Shown one piece after another: positions 19,845 to 35,648 of a stretch of DNA of 64,000 nt. Position 1 is the stretch's first letter; each line of letters begins with the position of its first letter. The position numbers and the translations under genes were made by a program. The DNA is from Spirochaetota bacterium (GTDB lineage Bacteria > Spirochaetota > UBA4802 > JAFGJZ01): the NCBI GenBank assembly GCA_029554345.1, contig JAKPJF010000053.1:62001-126000 (forward strand), read 5' to 3'. The notes under the pieces are model-generated. The model was not told the origin of the DNA. It worked only from the letters and a program-made list of their open reading frames with translations, and made no database searches.

Positions 19845-21932
19845 TCAATCGGCTTTGTTGCCTTTTGCACGTTTTTCAGCAGCAGCTTTAACTACTTTTT
19901 CCTGAACGTCTTTTGGAACCTGCTCGTAAGCATGAAATTCCATTGAATAGTTCGCTCTTCCGCTTGAAAGTGATCTGAGAGTAGTTGCATAACCGAACAT
20001 TTCAACAAGAGGTGCTTTCGCATCAACTTTCTGAGAACCTTTTCTGAATCTTCTCATGTCGCCGATCTTGCCTCTTCTTCTGTTTAGGTCTCCGATTACA
20101 TCACCGATATAATCATCCGGTGTATTTACTTCAACTTTCATTACCGGCTCAAGAAGAATCGGATCAGCTTTTAGAAAAGCCTGTTTAAAACACATTGAAG
20201 CACAAAGTCTGAACGCCATATCCGATGAATCGACTGCATGGAAACTACCGTCTATCAGAATAGCTTTAACGTCAAGAACCTGGAAGCCCGCAAGAATACC
20301 TTCATCCATAGTTGCTTCAAGACCTTTTCTAACTGAAGGAATATATTCCTGAGGAATTGCTCCTCCCTTAATCATATCAACAAACTCGAAACCCTTACCC
20401 GGATTAGGCTCAAAACGGATGGTACAGTTTGCGAACATACCTTTACCACCGGTCTGCTTAGCAAATTTATAAGAATTTTCAACAGGAGTCTTCATTGTTT
20501 CTCTGAATGCTACAGCCGGTTCTCCGACATCAACTATCAGACCATACTCTTCTTTCAGACGGTCAACCATGATCTCAAGGTGAAGCTCTCCCATACCCGC
20601 GATAACCGTTTCATTTGATTCTTCATCAACACGAGTCTTAAATGAAGGGTCTTCAGTTGAAAGTCTGTTAAGAGCAAAACCAAGCTTCTCTTCATCTTTC
20701 TTACTCTGCGGAGTAATCTTCATTTCAATAACCGCAGGCGGAATATGAATTTTTTCAAGAATTACAGGATTATCCTGATCACAAAGAGTATCGCCTGTTT
20801 TAGTGTCTTTCATACCGATAAGTGCAACGATTTCGCCGGCACCTGCAGATGTAAGTTCTTCTCTGTCTTTCGCATGAATTCTAAGAATTCGTCCTATTCT
20901 CTCTTTCTTTCCTTTTGTTGAATTAAGTACAGTTATACCGCTTTCAAGTTTTCCGGAATAAATTCGAATAAATGTCTGCTGACCAACATAAGGGTCATTT
21001 ATAAGCTTGAACGCAAGCGCACAAAAAGGATCGGACTCAACAGGATGTCTTGTATGAGATTTTGAAGGATCATTAATATCCTGTCCGTGCACAGAACCAA
21101 TATCAACAGGAGAAGGAAGATAATCAAGAACAGCATCAAGATATTCTTCTACACCTTTGTTTTTATATGAAGATGCGCAGAAAACGGGAGTAATATTCTG
21201 ATTTATAGTAACAGTTCTCGCAGCTTTTTTAAGTTCATCATATCCGATTTCTTCTTCTGCAAGATACTTTTCCATGATTGCGTCATTGAAATCTGCAATT
21301 TTTTCGATCATGTTCTTTCTTGCAGCTTCGGCTTCAGCTTTCATGTCTTCAGGAATATCTTTTTCTTCTCTTTTCAATTCAGCCGGATAATAAACAGCCT
21401 TCATTTTCATAAGGTCTATTACACCCTGAAAATTATCTTCAGCTCCGATTGGCAGCTGAAAAGGAACTGCATTGGCATCAAGATATTTATTCAGCTGGCC
21501 GACAACTTCCATAAAATCAGAACCGACACGGTCCATTTTATTGACAAGTGCTATTCTTGGAACTTTATAACGGTCAGCCTGATTCCAAACTGTTTCAGAC
21601 TGAGGCTCAACACCGCCCACTGCACAGAAAAGACCTATAAGACCGTCAATTACGCGCATTGAACGCTCAACTTCAACGGTAAAGTCAACGTGACCCGGAG
21701 TATCGATGATGTTAATCTGATGATCTTTCCACTTTGTTGTAATTGCTGCAGAAGCGATCGTAATACCTCTTTCCTGCTCCTGCTTCATGAAGTCGGTAGT
21801 TGCCGCTCCGTCATGAACTTCTCCGAGTTCTCTATTTACACCTGTGTAAAAAAGAATTCGCTCAGTAGTAGTTGTTTTTCCCGCGTCAATATGCGCGGCA
21901 ATACCGATATTTCTAAGTTTCGAAAGCGGCAT
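19845..21932 (-). CDS. fusA: Translation elongation factor G
   Basis: EF-G is the GTPase that drives ribosomal translocation. The protein is 695 residues, normal length. The GTPase motifs are [12 protein letters not shown] (G1, about 13-24), DTPGH (G3) and NKMD (G4), followed by the domain III-V order with GMGELHLEI in domain III. GTGAGGGAAAA lies before the ATG. It is monocistronic: a strong terminator follows, and the upstream membrane gene is separated by 150 bases. The str-operon neighbours rpsL, rpsG and tuf are absent, so fusA is detached from its usual operon, as happens in some spirochaetes. Confidence 0.97.
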
Positions 21933-25155: not shown

Positions 25156-26448
25156 TCATTGTATCTTTTTTGCAACACAATCCGGCAGTTGCGCTTTAAC
25201 ATCTTTCTCAACGCAGTCTTCAATCTCTTTTATGGATGACTGAATTTCTTTTTGCAAAAAATGATTTCTATAAAGAGTCGGAGTCATACCAAACTTCTTT
25301 TTAAATGCCGTATTGAACACAGACTTGGAATTAAAACCCGAATCAAGACTCGCATGAAGAATATTTAATTCTTTTTCAGTATTCGAAATAATCCCCGCAG
25401 CAAAGTCTATTCTGTAATCATTAACAAAATTAAAGAAATTCTTACCGAAAGTATCATTTATTATTTGTGAAATGTTATGTGTTGACACATCTATTTTTCG
25501 GGAAAAGTCTTTTATAGAAAAATCAGGATCAAGATAAGGTTTTTCCACATCCATGCAGTGATTTATACGCTTCAGATATTCTTCTTTAAGAGATTCGGAT
25601 ATCACATTTTTCCGGTATTTCGCATACCCATGCACTTCTCCTGCATAATCCGGATTTATTAGTCCGTTTGGATAATTATCAGGTGAAACTTTTCCAAGAA
25701 TATAATAACCGGCCGAATAGATAGAAATTACAGTAATAAATGAATTAACCAGGGACAATATCTCCGGAAAAAAAGGTATCTTTATTATATGGAAAAAAGT
25801 CCAGAAATGAGCAAATGATTCTATATAATAGAAATTAAGGGAAAGGAATGGAAGAAGCCAAAGAATAAAAACTGCAAACAAAAAAACAAGAAGCCAAGTT
25901 GTCGAAGCCCTTTTCATCCCAGGAAAAATTATTTTTTGTCTGCTTCGGTATCTAAAGACTTCCTTTAGAGAAAAAGCAAGATAACTGAATATAATTACAT
26001 ACTTTATATTCTGTGAATAAAACCTGAAACGAGTGATACCGCTTTCATCAAAATCAATAATAGAGTATGTTCCATATCCAAGATAGTGAGTGTTAAAAAA
26101 CAAACTGATGCCGAAAAAGACAAGTGCCGGAACGAAATGAATTAAATCTACGGATCTTAATCGTATATTCTTGCCAAAAAGAAAGCGTACATATAGGAGA
26201 ATCAGATATCCGTATAAAAATCCTAGTGTATCTTTCACTAAAAACAAAGGAAGATAATCAGACCACATGTGAGCCTTATAAACATAATGAAGTGCAAGCT
26301 CATAAGAAATAAACAGTATCAAAAAGGAAAAAACCCTGTCGGATCTCGACCTGCGAAAGAGCAGAAAAAATAAAAAAATACCCTGGGCTGAACCCAAAAG
26401 ACAGAATTGAGTAATTATACCATTTATTAATACAAATCTTTCAAACAT
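25156..26448 (-). CDS. Membrane-bound AraC-family transcription regulator
   Basis: This 430-residue protein has residues 1 to about 245 forming seven or eight TM segments (first about 9-28). Residues about 305-410 form an AraC double helix-turn-helix: FSIKDFSRKIDVSTHNISQI, then LHASLDSGFNSKSVFNTAFK followed by FGMTPTLYRNHF, the second-HTH signature. Membrane-anchored AraC regulators of this layout are common in Leptospira and Bacteroidetes and are thought to sense envelope or extracellular signals. It is divergent from the carbohydrate locus at 26.6 kb, across about 145 bases, and is its most likely regulator. Confidence 0.88.
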   Translation of the reverse strand: MFERFVLINGIITQFCLLGSAQGIFLFFLLFRRSRSDRVFSFLILFISYELALHYVYKAHMWSDYLPLFLVKDTLGFLYGYLILLYVRFLFGKNIRLRSVDLIHFVPALVFFGISLFFNTHYLGYGTYSIIDFDESGITRFRFYSQNIKYVIIFSYLAFSLKEVFRYRSRQKIIFPGMKRASTTWLLVFLFAVFILWLLPFLSLNFYYIESFAHFWTFFHIIKIPFFPEILSLVNSFITVISIYSAGYYILGKVSPDNYPNGLINPDYAGEVHGYAKYRKNVISESLKEEYLKRINHCMDVEKPYLDPDFSIKDFSRKIDVSTHNISQIINDTFGKNFFNFVNDYRIDFAAGIISNTEKELNILHASLDSGFNSKSVFNTAFKKKFGMTPTLYRNHFLQKEIQSSIKEIEDCVEKDVKAQLPDCVAKKIQ

Positions 26449-26592: not shown

Positions 26593-26703
26593 ATGGCACA
26601 TGATCCTTTTTTTTCGTTCTGTCTTATAAGATTGAACGACAAATTTTTTAAAATAAGTATGCTTAGACAGATTAAGCTCACAACCCGAGGAAATTGCCGA
26701 TGA
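26593..26703 (+). CDS. 36-residue ORF coupled to the ABC permease gene
   Basis: An ATG at 26593 follows GGAG at six bases. The 36-codon frame ends in TGA at 26701-26703, overlapping the permease ATG at 26700 (ATGA). The peptide contains two Cys and several Phe and basic residues (MAHDPFFSFCLIRLNDKFF at its start) and has no obvious TM helix. The good ribosome site plus exact stop-start overlap suggest a translated leader or small protein that couples translation into the permease gene. It could still be a chance frame. Confidence 0.45.
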   Translation: MAHDPFFSFCLIRLNDKFFKISMLRQIKLTTRGNCR

Positions 26704-27593
26704 TAAAGCTTACAGATAAAAATGAACGCCAGGCTCTCCGCTTTATGGCGCCTTTTCTGATTCTAATGCTGGTTTTTACAGTTATAGTTTTCGGAATAGG
26801 TTTCCTGACAAGTCTTACCGATGCCCAGGGGATTAATCCGGGAAAAAACATCGGGCTACTGAACTTTAAAAACATTCTCAAAGACCCATATTTCTGGAAC
26901 TCCGTTTATGTTTCATTTAAATTTGCAGCAGTATCAGTTGCAATTCAGATACCTGCTGCGTTTTTAATTTCTTTATGGATTGAAAGCCTCCCCTACAAGA
27001 AAACACAGAGTTTCCTTAAAGCCGCTTTTTTCATCCCTTCCCTGATTAATACTCTTGTAGCAGGAATACTATTCAGGCTGTTATTTTATGGAGAACAATG
27101 CATCGCCAATATTGTCATCGGATTTTTCGGAGGAAATCCTAACATGAACTGGCTTGATGATAAAACACTCGCCTTTCCGCTTCTTGTAATTGTTTCTTTC
27201 TGGCAATGTATCGGATTTCAAATTATATATTTTTCTGCCAATCTCAGATCACTTGATCAATCGCCTTATGAAGCTGCCAGAATAGACGGAGCCGGAAGAA
27301 TAAGTATTCTGAAGAACATCACTCTGCCGCTTATGAAACCCGCTTTGATTTTCATGACGATAACATCTGCAGTATCATCACTTCTGGTTTTTGACCTTAT
27401 ACTCGGTCTTTTCCAATACAATATTTACGACAATGTCACCGGAATCATTCTCTATATCTACCTAAGAGCTTTTCAATGGGATCTCGAAATCGGTGCTGCA
27501 AGCGCAGCTGGATGGATTGCTTTTTTTCTTATTCTTGCAGTGAGCCTGCTTCAGCTTAAATTTCTCGGACTCGGTGAAAAACATGAAGATTGA
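26700..27593 (+). CDS. Sugar ABC transporter permease, MalF/UgpA type
   Basis: This 297-residue inner-membrane subunit has six predicted TM segments. The EAA loop that docks to the ATPase reads YEAARIDGAGRISILKNITL. The family is the CUT1 oligosaccharide importers. The ATG at 26700 is chosen over a TTG at 26694 because GAGG lies nine bases upstream of the ATG and only three from the TTG. The next gene starts 11 bases before this one ends and carries the partner permease. The substrate is probably the product of the nearby GH5 enzyme, an inference from context. Confidence 0.9.
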   Translation: MIKLTDKNERQALRFMAPFLILMLVFTVIVFGIGFLTSLTDAQGINPGKNIGLLNFKNILKDPYFWNSVYVSFKFAAVSVAIQIPAAFLISLWIESLPYKKTQSFLKAAFFIPSLINTLVAGILFRLLFYGEQCIANIVIGFFGGNPNMNWLDDKTLAFPLLVIVSFWQCIGFQIIYFSANLRSLDQSPYEAARIDGAGRISILKNITLPLMKPALIFMTITSAVSSLLVFDLILGLFQYNIYDNVTGIILYIYLRAFQWDLEIGAASAAGWIAFFLILAVSLLQLKFLGLGEKHED

Positions 27594-29631
27594 AAACAGA
27601 TTTTCAGGATTGGACGGGTTGCGCGCCGCAGCATGTCTATTGGTAATATTACATCATGTCGCTCAGAGACTGGACATATATTCTCAGCATTTCATTCTTC
27701 AGCATATACAGCTCTTCTTTCTGATGGGAAACACCGGTGTAAGCTTTTTTTTCGTACTCAGCGGATTTCTCCTTTCCTATCCGTTCTGGAAAAACTATAT
27801 TTCAAATCTTGATTTTCCTGACATATCAAATTATGCTAAAAGAAGAGCTGCACGCATAATTCCGGGCTATTACGCTTCATTCGCAGTAAGTATAATTCTT
27901 GCGCTGCTCTTTATTCCTGACATGGATTATTTTGCAAGAAGGCTTATCACGGGATTAACTTTCACTGCAGGATTTCATTACACAACTCTTTTTCCGTCAT
28001 TCGTAAATTCACCTCTTTGGTCAATCAGCTTTGAAGTTTTTTCTTATTTGCTGATGCCCCTTTTTATGTTTGGTCTGTTCCGTCTTGCAGGAAAAAAAAG
28101 ATCTTTCAAAAAAGGAATTATTTATTGGATATTTGCATTAATTCTGATAATCGGAATAAATCAGCTGATACACATGTATCTTACTCCGGATAATGTCAAA
28201 CGCGGCTGGGAATTCGGGGTCACAGGCGGATCTAAATGGTGGATGCCGAATTATAATCCTATAGGTTTTTTCGGACATTTCGCATTCGGAATAATTGCAA
28301 GCGGAATATCCGCTTACTTCATAAAGAATAAAAAGCTCAGAGACAGAATCGCCGATAAAAACATTTTCGACATTGCCTCAATAATAAGCTCCGCAGCCAT
28401 AATAGGACTTTTATGCTATGTGCGCACCGAGGAAGAATTCACTCACAGCATTCAGAAACAGCCTTATTACTTTCCATATCTGACAGCATTGATAGCAATA
28501 CTCTCTGTTTCGCTCGTAAATTCAAGATTTACAGGAAAGTTATTTGATTCACGCTTTATGCGCTTTACAGCAAAAATATCTTTCGGACTTTACATCTGGC
28601 ACTATGTAATAATAGCTTTGATTTCTTTCTATGTTCTTCCCGAATACATGAATTACATGGCAATTAAAGACTGGCGACTCTGGGCAGGTGCATCATTGTT
28701 GATGATTGTAATTTCATACGGTGCGGCAACACTTTCTTTTCATTTCATCGAAAAACCCTTTATCGATAGAATTCAAAATGTACGGGAAAAAGTATTTAAG
28801 TCCAAAAGAAAAATCAGGCCCGGGAAGCTTCTGAGTGCATTTTTACTTTGCGTTCTCGCTCTCCTCTTCATTTTTCCGCTTTTATGGCTGCTTGACGCAT
28901 CTCTTCGTCCGCCTCTCGAAGTAATGCAATCGCCTCCTGCAATTTTTCAGCAGTCTATATGGAAATCAATTGAAAGCTATACCAGAGATTCCTATCTGGC
29001 GGCATTCTGGCATTTTGATGTCGGCCGAGCTCTTTTCAATTCAATAATTGTGTCTTCAGGAACAATTTTTTTAACGGCAATTGTGGTATCTTTATACGCA
29101 TATGCTTTAGTGTTTATGGAATTCAAGCATAAGAAGTTTTTCCTGATTATTGCACTTTCGACTATGATGATACCTGCTAACGCGCTTATGATTCCGATGT
29201 ACAAAGTCGCAAAAAATCTTCATCTTCTTAACAGCTGGTTCGGCCTGATACTTCCCGGTGCCGTCAGCGGATTCGGTGTATTTCTTTTACGGCAGTATTT
29301 TCTGAAAATTCCGTTAGCAGTAATCGAAGCAGCTCGTATGGACGGAGCAGGACATTTGAGAATCTGGTGGCATATTATTCTTCCTCTTGCAAGACCCGCG
29401 CTTGCGGCACTTGCAATAATTCAGTTCAGAATAGTCTGGAATGATTTTCTAAATCCTGTAATAATCATGCGCGATGAAAAACTCATGACTCTTCCCGTCA
29501 GAATTCTATTGATAAACGACACCGGATCGGTCCTTGCGGCAGGTTTTATTTCAATAATAATACCATTGATTCTATTTTTAAAATTTCACAGACAGTTTAC
29601 AGAAGGACTAACAGAAGGACTGCGCAAATGA
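27583..29631 (+). CDS. Fusion of acyltransferase-3 domain and MalG-type ABC permease
   Basis: A single uninterrupted frame of 682 codons runs from the ATG at 27583 (GGTG seven bases before; a GTG at 27574 is possible). Residues about 5-395 are an acyltransferase-3/OafA domain: GLDGLRAAACLLVILHH with the catalytic His pair at 24-25, FFFVLSGFLLSYPFW, SPLWSISFEVFSYLL, and FHFIEKPF at the end. Residues about 412-682 are a complete CUT1 permease: LLFIFPLLWLLDASLRPPLE, and EAA loop EAARMDGAGHLRIWWHIILP (582-601). AT3 proteins move acyl groups across the membrane onto sugars. Joining one to an importer subunit suggests acylation or deacylation linked to sugar uptake. The ATPase is not encoded nearby. 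Confidence 0.9.
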   Translation: MKIENRFSGLDGLRAAACLLVILHHVAQRLDIYSQHFILQHIQLFFLMGNTGVSFFFVLSGFLLSYPFWKNYISNLDFPDISNYAKRRAARIIPGYYASFAVSIILALLFIPDMDYFARRLITGLTFTAGFHYTTLFPSFVNSPLWSISFEVFSYLLMPLFMFGLFRLAGKKRSFKKGIIYWIFALILIIGINQLIHMYLTPDNVKRGWEFGVTGGSKWWMPNYNPIGFFGHFAFGIIASGISAYFIKNKKLRDRIADKNIFDIASIISSAAIIGLLCYVRTEEEFTHSIQKQPYYFPYLTALIAILSVSLVNSRFTGKLFDSRFMRFTAKISFGLYIWHYVIIALISFYVLPEYMNYMAIKDWRLWAGASLLMIVISYGAATLSFHFIEKPFIDRIQNVREKVFKSKRKIRPGKLLSAFLLCVLALLFIFPLLWLLDASLRPPLEVMQSPPAIFQQSIWKSIESYTRDSYLAAFWHFDVGRALFNSIIVSSGTIFLTAIVVSLYAYALVFMEFKHKKFFLIIALSTMMIPANALMIPMYKVAKNLHLLNSWFGLILPGAVSGFGVFLLRQYFLKIPLAVIEAARMDGAGHLRIWWHIILPLARPALAALAIIQFRIVWNDFLNPVIIMRDEKLMTLPVRILLINDTGSVLAAGFISIIIPLILFLKFHRQFTEGLTEGLRK

Positions 29632-29648: not shown

Positions 29649-31184
29649 ATGAAAACAAGAAAAATTGCACTGCTTCTCTTAGCGGCTGGATGCTTTTTTA
29701 CAGCCTGCACAAAATACCCGGCAGAATACAAAACTAAAGACATGTATTCTATAATGCTGAAAAACCCGGATAAAGCGATAGATTTCGCACGTTCCAGTGC
29801 AGAATTCTGGACTAAAACATATGACGATAAAAACGGCGGCTTCTTCACAATGGTTGCGCGAAACGGTGATGTTCTAGGCAATAATTACAAGTCTACATTA
29901 TCTCAAAGCAGAATAATGTACGCCTTCTCTCGCGCTTATATGCTGACAGGTGATAAAAAGTTTCTAAAGTACGCTAATTTTGCTGAAGATTTTATCAGAA
30001 CAAAGTGTTATGACAAAGAACACGGCGGTTTTTATACTACCGTTGATACAACCGGAAGAAATATCGATTTTACTTATGATATTCTTCTGAGTCAAAACAA
30101 CAGACAGAGAGAGAAATGGTCATTCATGCAGCACTATGCTCTCTTAGGATATTCAGCACTTGTAGATGCTACCCGCAACGAAAAACATTTTGATTTTCTG
30201 ATAAAATCACGCGCACTGCTCGACGAAAAACTATATGACAATAGAAAAGGATACGAAGGATATTACGAATCAGCAGATTATGACTGGAGAAATCCGAGAG
30301 GTAAAGGATTTACCCCGACCATGGATTGCGTAACAACACACGGTCTGTCTCTTTATCTTCTTACTAATGATGAGAAATATAAAGAAAGACTGATTTCCCT
30401 TGCGGATAATGTTATTAATCATATGTATCCTACGTCTCAATCAAGAAAAATCGGTTATGAAGAACAATATGATTCTGAATGGAGACCCAGAGATGAATCT
30501 TTCATTTTCATCGGCCATATGCTTAAAACTGCATGGTGTCTTCAGCGAGCGAATCTGATAAGTCCGAAAAATGAATATTCGGAAACAGCAGAAATAATTC
30601 TTCACAACATCAACGAAAAAGCATGGGACAACTCAAACGGCGGACCATACAATTTCGCAGACAGCTTCGAAGGAGTTATTACCAATGATAATAAAAACTA
30701 TTGGACTCTTGAGCAGGCAATCACCAGCGGACTTATCAATTATTATGTGACGGGAAACACCTTGTACCTTAAAATGGCAGATGAGGCATGCGGATTTTTC
30801 GAGCGTTATACAATAGATAAGGAATACGGAGACATCTTTGATGAAGTTAAACCTGACGGGAAAAGACTTAAAACAGATGAAGATGAATATAAAGGGTCTT
30901 ACTGGAAAAGCGCATATCATTCACTTGAAACAGCATATTATATTTATCTGTACGGGAATCTTTATTTCCACAGGAAAAATGCAACACTGTATTATAACAT
31001 CGAGAAATCTTCAAAGAAACGCGAGTTTCCGATGAATCCTGTTGAAGAAATTCAAAATCTCATTATCACAAAAGTCGAACACAATGGAAAAGATTACACT
31101 GATTATGATTCTAAAAAAAGAATTCTCAGAGTACCTGCGAACACTGAAGGCGAATTCAAAGTAACTTATTCGATTTCAAAATAA
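29649..31184 (+). CDS. Lipoprotein of the N-acylglucosamine/cellobiose 2-epimerase family
   Basis: The start at 29649 follows AAAGGAGATAAT; an ATG at 29628 lacks a site. The 511-residue product has a lipoprotein signal with candidate lipid Cys20 (FTAC). The (alpha/alpha)6-barrel family is recognised by ESFIFIGHMLKTAWCLQRA and SYWKSAYHSLETAY, whose His290 and His424 match the two catalytic His of cellobiose and mannobiose 2-epimerases. MDCVTTHGLSLYL gives a third conserved His. Known members are mostly cytosolic, so an exported form is unusual. It follows the permease fusion by 17 bases and ends at a shared terminator. Confidence 0.82.
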   Translation: MKTRKIALLLLAAGCFFTACTKYPAEYKTKDMYSIMLKNPDKAIDFARSSAEFWTKTYDDKNGGFFTMVARNGDVLGNNYKSTLSQSRIMYAFSRAYMLTGDKKFLKYANFAEDFIRTKCYDKEHGGFYTTVDTTGRNIDFTYDILLSQNNRQREKWSFMQHYALLGYSALVDATRNEKHFDFLIKSRALLDEKLYDNRKGYEGYYESADYDWRNPRGKGFTPTMDCVTTHGLSLYLLTNDEKYKERLISLADNVINHMYPTSQSRKIGYEEQYDSEWRPRDESFIFIGHMLKTAWCLQRANLISPKNEYSETAEIILHNINEKAWDNSNGGPYNFADSFEGVITNDNKNYWTLEQAITSGLINYYVTGNTLYLKMADEACGFFERYTIDKEYGDIFDEVKPDGKRLKTDEDEYKGSYWKSAYHSLETAYYIYLYGNLYFHRKNATLYYNIEKSSKKREFPMNPVEEIQNLIITKVEHNGKDYTDYDSKKRILRVPANTEGEFKVTYSISK

Positions 31185-31226: not shown

Positions 31227-31260
31227 AATAAAAAACGGGCATTTAAGCCCGTTTTTTATT
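31227..31260. terminator. Bidirectional terminator between epimerase and endoglucanase genes
   Basis: Perfect 14-bp arms 31227-31240 and 31247-31260, with GC core CGGGC/GCCCG, loop ATTTAA, and A and T runs on both sides. It lies 43 bases past the epimerase stop and overlaps the stop codon of the facing GH5 gene (31256-31258), so it serves both. Confidence 0.9.
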
Positions 31261-32293
31261 CTGCTATTTTCTTTTTAACAAATCTTCCGGATTCAGTAAG
31301 AAGTGAATTATTCCACTTTCCTGTAGGCTTTGCCTCAACTTTCAAAGCAGATGCAGATTCCATTTTATTAAACAAAGACCAGTTGCACCAGCTAAGCTTG
31401 TGCTTATTCATAAAATCAATCCATATCAGGCTTTCTTCAATGTCAACAAAACCGTCGCCGTTATTTTCACACGTTCCCCATTCTGAAACAAAAATAGGAA
31501 GACCTTTTGAAATAGCACTTTCAGCTCTGTCTCTAAATGTTTTTTTATGAGTCGCTGCATAAAAATGAAGAGCATATGCGACATTCTTTCCGTTTTTTAC
31601 AGGAAACTCCGCTGCAATATCAACATCCTGTGACCATGATGTAGTTCCGACGATTATTATATTGTCTGACCCATTTGCACGTATCGTTTCAATTACAGAT
31701 TCGGAATATTTTCTTACATCCAACCATTGATCGTTTATAGGTTCATTAAATATTTCAAAAATAACATTTGGGTATTGCCCGTATCCGGCAGCCATTTCAG
31801 CGAAAAATTTCTTGGATTCTTCGGTGTGACTGATAGCATCATGATCATGCCAGTCGATAATTACGTAAATACCCTTTTCAATTGCCGCATCAAGAACTGT
31901 TTTCAGCTTATCAATTTCCCCGGAATTTTCAAGATAACCGCCTTTGCTAACACCCATTGCAGCACGTATTACCGAGCATTTCCAATCATCAGCGAGAGTA
32001 TTTACAACATCCTTATTCCAAAATCCGTTTGACCATTGACTCCAAAACAAACTCATTCCCTTTAATTGAACGATGTTTCCGTTCTCATCACAAAGATTGA
32101 CTCCTTTTATCTGAAGTTTTCCATATTTGGCCACAGGAGATCCCGCAGGAGGTTGAGGAATCTGAATAATACTCCTTTCCACAATCGGAATATTCTCTTT
32201 CTTTGGTTCATTTTCCTTTTTACATGATAAAAGCATAACTACAGGCAAAAGCGAGCAGACAATTATAAATCGCTTTTTTAATGGAAATATCAT
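31256..32293 (-). CDS. GH5 endoglucanase (cellulase) lipoprotein
   Basis: This 345-residue protein has a lipoprotein signal (residues 1-24, LLSC with lipid Cys24) and a Lys/Pro linker. Residues about 55-340 form a glycoside hydrolase family 5 barrel, most like the bacterial endoglucanase subfamily GH5_2. Acid/base Glu184 is in IFEIFNEP, nucleophile Glu271 in IFVSEWGTC, and VIIDWHDHDAISH marks the substrate cleft. The expected activity is internal cleavage of beta-1,4-glucan or mannan on the cell surface or in the periplasm. It faces the epimerase-permease operon, sharing only a terminator, with its own promoter region to the right. Confidence 0.93.
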   Translation of the reverse strand: MIFPLKKRFIIVCSLLPVVMLLSCKKENEPKKENIPIVERSIIQIPQPPAGSPVAKYGKLQIKGVNLCDENGNIVQLKGMSLFWSQWSNGFWNKDVVNTLADDWKCSVIRAAMGVSKGGYLENSGEIDKLKTVLDAAIEKGIYVIIDWHDHDAISHTEESKKFFAEMAAGYGQYPNVIFEIFNEPINDQWLDVRKYSESVIETIRANGSDNIIIVGTTSWSQDVDIAAEFPVKNGKNVAYALHFYAATHKKTFRDRAESAISKGLPIFVSEWGTCENNGDGFVDIEESLIWIDFMNKHKLSWCNWSLFNKMESASALKVEAKPTGKWNNSLLTESGRFVKKKIAE

Positions 32294-32487: not shown

Positions 32488-33546
32488 ATGCGTTTTGTTC
32501 TTCTTTCTGATTTAGATCTTGGTTTATCAGATGATTTTCTTCCAGTATCGGATGAAGACCGTCTCAACACGCTCGAAAACTCTATCAAAGATTCATCTGA
32601 TGCAGATGCAATACTTATTTCCGGCAATATTTTCACCAACATTTCCAGTGAGTTAATAGATAAATTAAACAAAATTTTTGCAAATAGAAACGGAATAAAC
32701 ACTAAAATCATCATCCTTCTTACGGAAAAAGAAAGAAGAATGATGGAAGAATTTAATTTAAATATTGAATCGGTTGATAAGATATTCACAAAAGATAATG
32801 AACCTTTTCTAATTGAAAAAGGTAATGAAAAAATATATTTTTACGGATCTTCCAGAAAAGATGATATTTTTCTAACAGATAAATGCGCAGATGACGGTTT
32901 TCATATCGGGTTGTTCAATTTAAACATTGAAGAATATGCAGAAAATGAAATCGAAATGAAAACATTTTTCAAAAAACTGCCACTTGATTTTTACGCACTC
33001 GGCGGAATCAGCACACCAAAAATATTTAAAGTTTCCGGCAAAATAATAGCGGCTTATCCGGGTCACGCCGAAGCTTCCTCAGCCGAAGAAAATTCTACAA
33101 AATATTCTTTAAACTTAGTGACATCAGATGATTCAATTTATGAAATAAAAAGATTACCCCTGAAAAGTACAAATTTTATATCATTAATCATTGATTGCGA
33201 CAGCACTAATTTAAATGAAATCGAAACCATTGTCAATGAAGCAAAAAACACCGAAACACGCCTTTATATCAGATTTGACGGAATGAGAAATTTTCCATTA
33301 GATAAATTAAATCTGGGAGAAAAATATAAATCAGTCAAAATTGACGACAATTCTTTTCCATCATTAAAGCAGTTATCATCGGAAATTGAAACCAGCGGTA
33401 TGTGGAAAGATTTTTTCGACTTGCTAAATTCAAAGCAAATACCGGAAGATGTGGATATAAAAGAATTATCACGGATGATTTTTTGCATTATTAAAAACGG
33501 ATCAATAATTTCGGAGGACTGGATTTGCGCTTTACTCAATGCATAG
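32488..33546 (+). CDS. SbcD/YhaO-like protein with degenerate nuclease site
   Basis: This 352-residue protein has the calcineurin-like fold order of SbcD/Mre11/YhaO but not its metal site: SDLDLG in place of SDxHLG (His replaced by Asp10), SGNIF for SGDIF (Asn47), LLTEKE where GNHE is expected, HIGLFN for LLH, and ALGGISTPK in place of GHxH. Only Asp8 remains. It is followed, with a 22-base overlap, by a YhaN-like SMC ATPase. The natural reading is an inactive partner subunit of an SbcCD/YhaON-like complex. The upstream region holds a GGCATTGATGCC palindrome (32442-32453). Confidence 0.78.
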   Translation: MRFVLLSDLDLGLSDDFLPVSDEDRLNTLENSIKDSSDADAILISGNIFTNISSELIDKLNKIFANRNGINTKIIILLTEKERRMMEEFNLNIESVDKIFTKDNEPFLIEKGNEKIYFYGSSRKDDIFLTDKCADDGFHIGLFNLNIEEYAENEIEMKTFFKKLPLDFYALGGISTPKIFKVSGKIIAAYPGHAEASSAEENSTKYSLNLVTSDDSIYEIKRLPLKSTNFISLIIDCDSTNLNEIETIVNEAKNTETRLYIRFDGMRNFPLDKLNLGEKYKSVKIDDNSFPSLKQLSSEIETSGMWKDFFDLLNSKQIPEDVDIKELSRMIFCIIKNGSIISEDWICALLNA

Positions 33547-35648
33547 CTGCCAAAACCGGTGTTCTTGAAAATAAGATCATCAATTTTGACAATCCAATTA
33601 CAATAATATACGGCGGAAATGAATCAGGAAAATCGCTTTTCGCAAAAGCTATGATAGATTCTGCCTTCGCAATACAAAAAGAAAACCGAATTTTATCCGA
33701 GGATATGTGGAGCAATCTTTATGTGAATATGACACTTGCGGGTGAAAATGAAAAAATGACTATTATCCGGAATGGAAGCAGTCTTATAACATTCGCAGAT
33801 GTATCATCGGGCACCGGAAAAGAAGTTTATGCCGGTGAAACCGACATTACAAGGTTTTCAGATAAAATAAAATCACAGCAGAATCTTTCGGACTCCATGA
33901 TTTGCCGCTTGATAACAACAATAACTCCGCAGATTTTTATTGATGCTTCATTTATCTCTTCTCCATTCGAATCATTTCTTGAACCCTACTATAGCTACGA
34001 CAATATTAACAAAATTGTATCCTTTTCTGAAGATAAATTCATAGATATACACTCAAAACTAAAACGCAGTATTTATTCTGACCAAATTTCAACCAGAATA
34101 AACAACTCTTTTCTTTCTAATATCTTTTATCATGAAAATGAAATTCAGAAAATAAAGAAAGAACTTCAGATATTTGATGTTCATTTTTCAAAGATTGATA
34201 AATTATCACAGGAATTATCAGAAATTAAAAACCGCAATCAAAGTATTGAAAATGAACTTATTGAGATTGAAAGCAGAACAGCTTTTCTTCATAAATCCCA
34301 GGAAGCTCTAGCAAATGTTTTCATAATAGAAAGCAAACTCAACGGACTTAAGAATTTTGTTGCATCCGAAGAAAGCAAAGTTTCATCAATAGAAGCAAAA
34401 AAACAAAAACTCAATGACAGATTTTCAAAATTTATAAATCTGTCAGAAACACAAAGAAATAATCTCAATAACATTCAGCTTGCTTACAAGTATGCGATTG
34501 ACGCAAAAGATTCATTGATCAAAAGATTAAAAACAATCGGAATACTGAAAAATTTGTGCTATGCGGCAACTGCTTCCTTTTTCTGCGCTTCACTGGCTTT
34601 TCCTCTAGCAGTCCATTTTTTTCATCAATATTTTGAACAAATCAAGACACTTCATAAAATTCTAATTCCATCATCAGGATTATTTATATCTATACTTTCT
34701 ATTGCAATACTGAAGTTCAGATTAAAAAAAGATATCAGCATTAAACTGGAAGAACTCTTCAATCAAAGAGTTGCGGAACTTAAAGAGATATTATCAAAAA
34801 GCGATATACCTGTATCATCGGAGCATTTCGAAGACATGTTTGAGTTTCTTCTTCAGTATTTCGAAGAATATTCGGAATTTCTTGAAAATGAAAATGAAAT
34901 AGAAGACATTGAAAATTCCTTATTTCCTGAAGAAAAAATTAACAGCGTCAGACAGGAAATTCTTGATCTTGAGAAAAACAGAACTGCACTCCTGAAGTCT
35001 CTCGAAAGCATAAACGGTGAAAGAAACTCGAAAAATACCGCAATCAATAAACAGATCGAGGGAAATGCAGAGAAAGTTTCAGTATTAAAAGATGAACTTG
35101 AAAGGAATATTGAAATTCTCAAAAGAATGAATGACGAACTTCAGGCCAGAGGCAAAGAAAGCAGTCAGAGCGAATCTCTAAATCAAAGAAAACTTTTTCA
35201 CGAACAAAAACTTAAAAGTTTAAAATCATCACACCGAAGTGCTTCTTTTATACTTACAAACATGACTCAGGCAAGAGCCGAATTTGAAAATAGAGCTTTC
35301 TCGCAAATTTCAGAAGATACCTTTTCTATTTTTTCAGAAATAACGACTTCAAACTCTATAAATAAACAAGATACGGATATGCTGATAAAAGGCGACATTA
35401 GCTCAATAAAAAACACATCGCTCAGATACTCCGCACTTCTGTCTTTCAAACTTGCAATGGGGAGATCAATGAAAAATTCGAACATTTCACTTCCTTTAAT
35501 AATTGACGAACCCGCATCATATCTGGATAAGGGAAAAATTGATAAATTTTTCAGCATATTGTCGGAATTTTCATCTGAAAGGCAGATTATAATACTTACA
35601 TGCGATGATAAACTCTTTTCCGGCATAGGTCAAACGGTCAAATTCTGA
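33525..35648 (+). CDS. YhaN-like SMC/Rad50-type ATPase with internal TM segments
   Basis: This 707-residue protein starts at TTG, with CGGAGGACTGGA upstream. Walker A is IIYGGNESGKS (Lys36). Residues about 200-330 and 400-560 are coiled coil. Between them lie two strong TM segments (about 345-366 and 379-398), as in Bacillus YhaN, and the Walker B LIIDEPASYLDKG is near the C-terminus. It is a membrane-tethered DNA-processing ATPase of the SbcC/Rad50 group. Its upstream partner is the degenerate YhaO-like gene (22-base overlap), and the TPR gene downstream overlaps by one base (TGATG), so all three are one unit. Confidence 0.85.
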   Translation: MRFTQCIAAKTGVLENKIINFDNPITIIYGGNESGKSLFAKAMIDSAFAIQKENRILSEDMWSNLYVNMTLAGENEKMTIIRNGSSLITFADVSSGTGKEVYAGETDITRFSDKIKSQQNLSDSMICRLITTITPQIFIDASFISSPFESFLEPYYSYDNINKIVSFSEDKFIDIHSKLKRSIYSDQISTRINNSFLSNIFYHENEIQKIKKELQIFDVHFSKIDKLSQELSEIKNRNQSIENELIEIESRTAFLHKSQEALANVFIIESKLNGLKNFVASEESKVSSIEAKKQKLNDRFSKFINLSETQRNNLNNIQLAYKYAIDAKDSLIKRLKTIGILKNLCYAATASFFCASLAFPLAVHFFHQYFEQIKTLHKILIPSSGLFISILSIAILKFRLKKDISIKLEELFNQRVAELKEILSKSDIPVSSEHFEDMFEFLLQYFEEYSEFLENENEIEDIENSLFPEEKINSVRQEILDLEKNRTALLKSLESINGERNSKNTAINKQIEGNAEKVSVLKDELERNIEILKRMNDELQARGKESSQSESLNQRKLFHEQKLKSLKSSHRSASFILTNMTQARAEFENRAFSQISEDTFSIFSEITTSNSINKQDTDMLIKGDISSIKNTSLRYSALLSFKLAMGRSMKNSNISLPLIIDEPASYLDKGKIDKFFSILSEFSSERQIIILTCDDKLFSGIGQTVKF

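Follow-up and report, generated by a model that had tools for sequence, protein, structure and literature searches.

An acyltransferase-3 domain fused to a MalG-type sugar importer permease in a single spirochaete genus

Results

Gene organization of the locus

We analysed a 64-kb stretch of DNA from a Spirochaetota bacterium (hereafter called “the window”). Its central feature is a single open frame of 682 codons plus a stop codon, as an earlier note on this DNA had read it, in which two Pfam domains exceed the curated cut-offs. PF01757 (Acyl_transf_3, hereafter AT3) matches residues 8–380 with 108.4 bits against a cut-off of 31 (E 5e-31), and the alignment spans positions 2–323 of the 326 positions in the profile, corresponding to a full AT3 domain. 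PF00528 (BPD_transp_1) matches residues 500–665 (52 bits, E 9e-14), and the solved SugB, AlgM2, and MalG align over residues 415–680 in a sequence search of the structure database. Together with the intact EAA loop, these matches agree with the previous description of the C-terminal half as a complete CUT1 permease. In the Pfam search, the fusion has no SGNH match, and the C-terminus is PF00528 instead; an esterase domain is also absent.

The preceding gene encodes a PF00528 permease and is the MalF partner, as had been proposed. Its start codon is either TTG 26694 or ATG 26700, the latter being more likely, and its 3′ end overlaps the start of the fusion gene by 11 bases (Table 1). The last gene of the operon encodes an AGE-family predicted lipoprotein, which matches the cellobiose 2-epimerases in the PDB; it starts at ATG 29649 behind AAAGGAG, while the listed frame starts at 29628. 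This AGE-like protein carries GHMLK in place of the GHDIE of cellobiose 2-epimerase (Glu to Lys) in both the window and the second species described below (L007:10380-11915), and an extracytoplasmic AGE-like protein with an altered active site is unusual. The operon is closed by a terminator-like hairpin, from a pattern scan whose matches were, overall, no more numerous than in shuffled sequences. Neither a binding-protein gene nor an ATPase gene is present in the operon, and the scan of the flanking genes revealed no gene for an envelope glycan.

Two other observations were made in the window. An EF-G-like gene (19845-21932; L007:573-2660) has a dS of 0.08 between the two species, as compared to 0.5–0.8 for its neighbours, which indicates either strong codon constraint or a recent exchange. 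On the other side, 32488-35648 contains two overlapping genes resembling an SbcD/SbcC-type pair, the second with an AAA_27 match and the first with no Pfam match.

Table 1. Features of the fusion operon and its neighbours (positions in the window; L007 is the corresponding locus of the second species)
Feature	Position	Strand	Basis
Divergent AraC-type regulator with hydrophobic N-terminal half, candidate operon regulator	25156..26448	-	PF12833; conserved in L007
MalF-type partner permease	26694..27593	+	PF00528; L007 orthologue 95% identical
AT3::MalG fusion gene	27583..29631	+	Open frame; two Pfam domains; equal-length orthologue in the second species
AT3 domain, codons 1-384	27583..28734	+	PF01757; hydropathy; positive-inside pattern; residues common to both species
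R14-X10-H25 motif, AT3 membrane helix 1	27622..27657	+	Sequence; motif per PMC7448272, PMC9833829
Predicted cytoplasmic linker, codons 385-415	28735..28827	+	10 K/R vs 3 D/E; fastest-evolving part
MalG-type CUT1 permease domain, codons 416-682	28828..29628	+	PF00528; solved homologues; free MalG paralogue
EAA loop of the MalG domain, EAARMDGAGHLRIWWHIILP	29326..29385	+	Sequence; aligns with ESARVDGAGHLKIWWNIILP of the C105 paralogue
AGE-family (GlcNAc/cellobiose 2-epimerase-like) predicted lipoprotein, last operon gene	29649..31184	+	PF07221 5e-29
Terminator-like hairpin closing the operon	31227..31260	+	Pattern scan; exactly between convergent genes
GH5 glycosidase, convergent neighbour, probable lipoprotein	31256..32293	-	PF00150 2e-61; L007 orthologue shows lipobox

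Conservation of the fused frame

The same 682-codon fusion is present in the only other species available for the genus, represented by a Spirochaetes metagenome-assembled genome (contig JAKJGA010000001.1; L007:8314-10362). The two orthologues are 95% identical in protein and 88% identical in DNA, with no indel, and the 244 differing bases are distributed over codon positions 1, 2, and 3 as 39, 7, and 198, respectively. For the whole gene, dS is 0.64 and dN/dS is 0.044, and the neighbouring MalF and AGE genes show similar values. The dN/dS is 0.046 in the AT3 part, 0.028 in the MalG part, and 0.18 in a 35-codon stretch around the linker. At this dS, the values for the AT3 and MalG halves show that both are under strong purifying selection.

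Could MalG also be produced on its own from within the fusion gene? In-frame ATG, GTG, and TTG codons are absent from both species between codons 375 and 447, a range that includes the whole of MalG helix 1, as is a Shine-Dalgarno-like motif at the junction. A complete, separately made MalG is therefore very unlikely, with the rare starts ATT, ATC, and CTG as the possible routes to it.

The equal length, the lack of indels, the codon-position pattern, the dS, and the dN/dS argue against chance, sequencing error, or a remnant, and thus the locus is very unlikely to be broken, artefactual, or made up of two genes. Both genomes are drafts, the window’s own being in 214 contigs, and an assembly or sequencing step could in principle have joined two genes. 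However, both assemblies contain the same junction, with the DNA 88% identical, well inside contigs of 133 kb and 41 kb, and we give this explanation practically no weight. The statement that the gene is not a broken remnant thus holds, with the orthologue conserved, both halves under selection, the key residues intact, and no start at the junction. A stop or frameshift near the junction, which the earlier note had named as a possible refutation, is not seen in the second species, where the frame is the same.

The acyltransferase half

Several elements are functionally important in AT3 proteins: the R-X10-H motif, the RXXR motif, a Trp/Glu pair, a Tyr in the loop between helices 5 and 6, and a Glu after helix 10 (PMC7448272, PMC9833829). 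In the fusion, the two species share R14-X10-H25, FFVLSG (56–61), R88-X2-R91, W146, E151, Y224, G236, and E390, with W146/E151, Y224, and E390 equated with the OafB residues by motif rather than by direct alignment. The conserved E390 is located just past the AT3 domain, within the linker. Most of these residues are also invariant in an alignment with two free AT3 relatives. Together with the full-length profile match, they are consistent with the complete and intact AT3 domain that had been claimed. The same claim named His24-His25 as catalytic. H25 is the probable catalytic histidine, because R14-X10-H25 is the conserved AT3 motif, while H24, invariant among four relatives, is not the motif residue.

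Hydropathy predicts ten hydrophobic segments in the AT3 half, with the K/R-rich loops being the even-numbered ones in the positive-inside manner, and the basic linker, with its ten K/R residues, leads directly into MalG helix 1. The topology of Oac-type AT3 proteins has been reported as N-in/C-in, and that of MalG is N-in. The pattern of the basic loops and linker thus points to an N-in/C-in AT3 half, a cytoplasmic linker, and an N-in MalG half, so that the chain would enter MalG helix 1 in the correct orientation without an added helix. Among the solved structures, the AT3 half has no sequence match, and an AlphaFold prediction of the full chain from a three-row alignment was discarded (pLDDT 33).

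The nearest AT3 found belongs to a distant spirochaete (G314, L049:8352-9704), where it is free-standing, and shows 38–39% identity. Its gene lies between trmE- and mnmG-like (tRNA-modification) genes with no transporter nearby, and the protein has its own eleventh helix after the AT3 core, where the fusion has MalG helix 1. The other free relative is encoded on plasmid p3 of Rhizobium sp. NLR16a (34.5% identity), near a sugar transferase gene. Over the AT3 domain, the two free relatives are 37–39% identical to the fusion, and a GGxKxWMPxYNPxGFF block is common to all three.

In the genome of the window, three AT3 genes were found, each near an AraC-family regulator gene (window 25156-26448, L090:5324-7673, and L091:5208-7176), which is adjacent in two cases and one gene away in the window. 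The regulators in the window and at L090 both have a hydrophobic N-terminal half.

Origin of the MalG half and candidates for the other importer components

A tree of 44 rows places the MalG half as sister to the MalG proteins of GH94 phosphorylase operons (support 100/98). One of these sisters lies in the same genome, on contig C105, with MalF, GH94, and a cellobiose 2-epimerase-like gene, and it is 50–51% identical to the MalG half; the second species has a binding protein upstream in the operon of this type. On this basis, the MalG half and the MalG of the cellobiose-phosphorylase-linked importer in the same genome are diverged paralogues. The cellobiose-type operon (L051, L052; the binding protein in the second species, MalF, MalG, GH94, and AGE) adjoins a FapA-like flagellar assembly gene.

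Which proteins could complete the importer? Each of the two genomes has a single OB_MalK ATPase gene. Both species also possess orphan CUT1 binding proteins that are 51–57% identical to the cellobiose binding protein and have no permease nearby (L088:4268-6994, L103:5361-5449, and L104:1-546). They are located between hom/thrC and the next gene. In the second species they stand in tandem (contig C158), and in the genome of the window a contig break divides them between C153 and C54. The simplest assembly would consist of MalF, AT3::MalG, the shared MalK-type ATPase, and an orphan binding protein, the last paired with the fusion importer by elimination only.

Distribution

The fusion is present in both genomes of the genus, in neither of two further genomes of the family, and in none of 44 other genomes of the class, which equals the order in the genome set used. 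Among 393 evenly drawn Spirochaetota genomes, it was found only in the same two. Long frames of about 590–710 codons at the MalG matches of other spirochaetes proved, in the loci checked (L009, L037, and L039), to be ordinary MalF and MalG genes. Of the plasmid records, 2,247 match one or the other half and none covers 80% of the query; viral contigs gave 11 pattern matches, none of them a relative, and the phage records contain no AT3 match. Other phyla were covered by one pattern scan of genome contigs, which detects close relatives only and would miss distant independent fusions.

Discussion

Comparison with known systems

As a domain architecture, AT3::MalG is new and confined to a single genus. 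The fusion partners named in the AT3 reviews and structural papers are SGNH, alanine/serine racemase, and the eukaryotic NRF, with no ABC importer permease among them, and our search of the open-access literature found no paper on an AT3 or other acyltransferase fused to an ABC permease. The AT3-SGNH fusions OafA, OafB, and OatA have in common with our protein the N-terminal AT3, the R-X10-H and RXXR motifs, and a helix that begins the C-terminal partner, but their partner is a periplasmic SGNH esterase domain instead of a six-helix ABC permease. In the VanT-type AT3–alanine racemase, the C-terminal partner likewise begins on the cytoplasmic side, although it is a soluble racemase (PMC9558356, PMC12423673). 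The AT3-only O-acyltransferases of the Shigella Oac type, and the nearest relatives described above, are free-standing proteins without a CUT1 permease. As compared to the CUT1 permeases MalG, SugB, and UgpE, the fusion shares the complete MalG domain, the EAA loop, and the upstream MalF partner, while it adds an N-terminal AT3 of about 385 residues and lies in an operon without a binding protein.

Proposed function

We propose, with a probability of roughly 0.6, that the fusion is coupled to the importer, and that its AT3 half acylates an extracytoplasmic saccharide at the mouth of a cello-type importer. The product would be one polytopic protein, in which the short basic cytoplasmic linker runs from an N-terminal ten-helix AT3, with both ends in the cytoplasm, into helix 1 of a complete MalG-type permease. 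Together with MalF, the single MalK-type ATPase of the genome, and an orphan binding protein, the MalG half would make up a type-I sugar importer derived from one for cellobiose/cello-oligosaccharides. In the AT3 half, an acyl group from cytoplasmic acyl-CoA would be transferred to an extracytoplasmic saccharide at the importer mouth, and the fusion would set a ratio of one AT3 per importer and keep the AT3 in position. AT3 proteins use cytoplasmic acyl-CoA as the donor and transfer the acyl group to an acceptor outside the cytoplasm, so the most likely substrate of the AT3 half is a saccharide at the outer face, beside the importer. We infer the assembly with MalF, the ATPase, and the binding protein, the acyl transfer, and the saccharide nature of the acceptor. 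The acceptor may be either an envelope glycan or the imported sugar, and none of the operon genes names it.

That acyl transfer is tied to sugar supply, as the earlier note had suggested, is reasonable because the surroundings are sugar-uptake genes, namely the importer paralogue, the AGE lipoprotein, and the GH5 lipoprotein. The other part of that suggestion, de-acylation of a sugar during uptake, is rejected: the AT3 proteins described in the cited papers add acyl groups, and de-acylation by the AT3 half has neither a precedent nor an esterase domain to perform it. Counting against the coupling, the fusion occurs in only two genomes of one genus, and might be a young peculiarity.

This narrow distribution would also suit a fortuitous fusion, in which neighbouring operon genes lost the intervening stop codon, and the AT3, acting on an envelope glycan, and MalG work independently. 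The free relative in G314 (38%), with its own eleventh helix and no nearby transporter, fits such an origin. However, the fused form has been conserved over a dS of 0.64 without an internal start, and the expected ancestor, with AT3 and MalG as separate neighbours, was found in no genome. On balance, we regard an accidental union as doubtful. The independent function of the AT3 half may also have been lost, leaving an acyl-CoA-sensing or structural module that no longer acylates a saccharide and tunes the importer. AT3 domains of unclear role are fused to other proteins elsewhere (VanT, with a C-terminal racemase; PMC9558356), but both species retain every acyl-CoA and catalytic-motif residue that was tested, and with an AT3 dN/dS of 0.046 such a module seems quite improbable.

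Alternatively, the cargo itself could be modified: the AT3 half would acylate an oligosaccharide bound at the outer gate, and import would then carry the acylated form, as in group translocation. The covalent join to the importer is easiest to explain if both halves act on the same sugar, and the locus otherwise consists entirely of saccharide handling (importer, AGE-like lipoprotein, and GH5), with no envelope-glycan gene identified in the scanned flanks. Human HGSNAT provides a precedent, as it acetylates a sugar outside the cytosol to permit its degradation. This acetylation is required for heparan sulfate breakdown (PMC11357348), and HGSNAT and the AT3 proteins have a common superfamily fold (PMC12423673). 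Nevertheless, neither a matching deacylase nor a dedicated catabolic enzyme could be recognized among the operon genes, and the expenditure of acyl-CoA on a carbon source has no bacterial precedent in the cited literature, which leaves cargo acylation unlikely. A full group-translocating ABC importer, which would import its sugar as the acyl derivative and in which the acyl-CoA level would set the uptake, is improbable.

The fusion bears on a wider problem, as the AT3 reviews and structural papers call the way in which free AT3 proteins find their acceptors an open question. With an AT3 naturally tied to a single defined importer, fewer acceptors come into question, and the coupling between acylation and sugar uptake becomes testable with one small operon.
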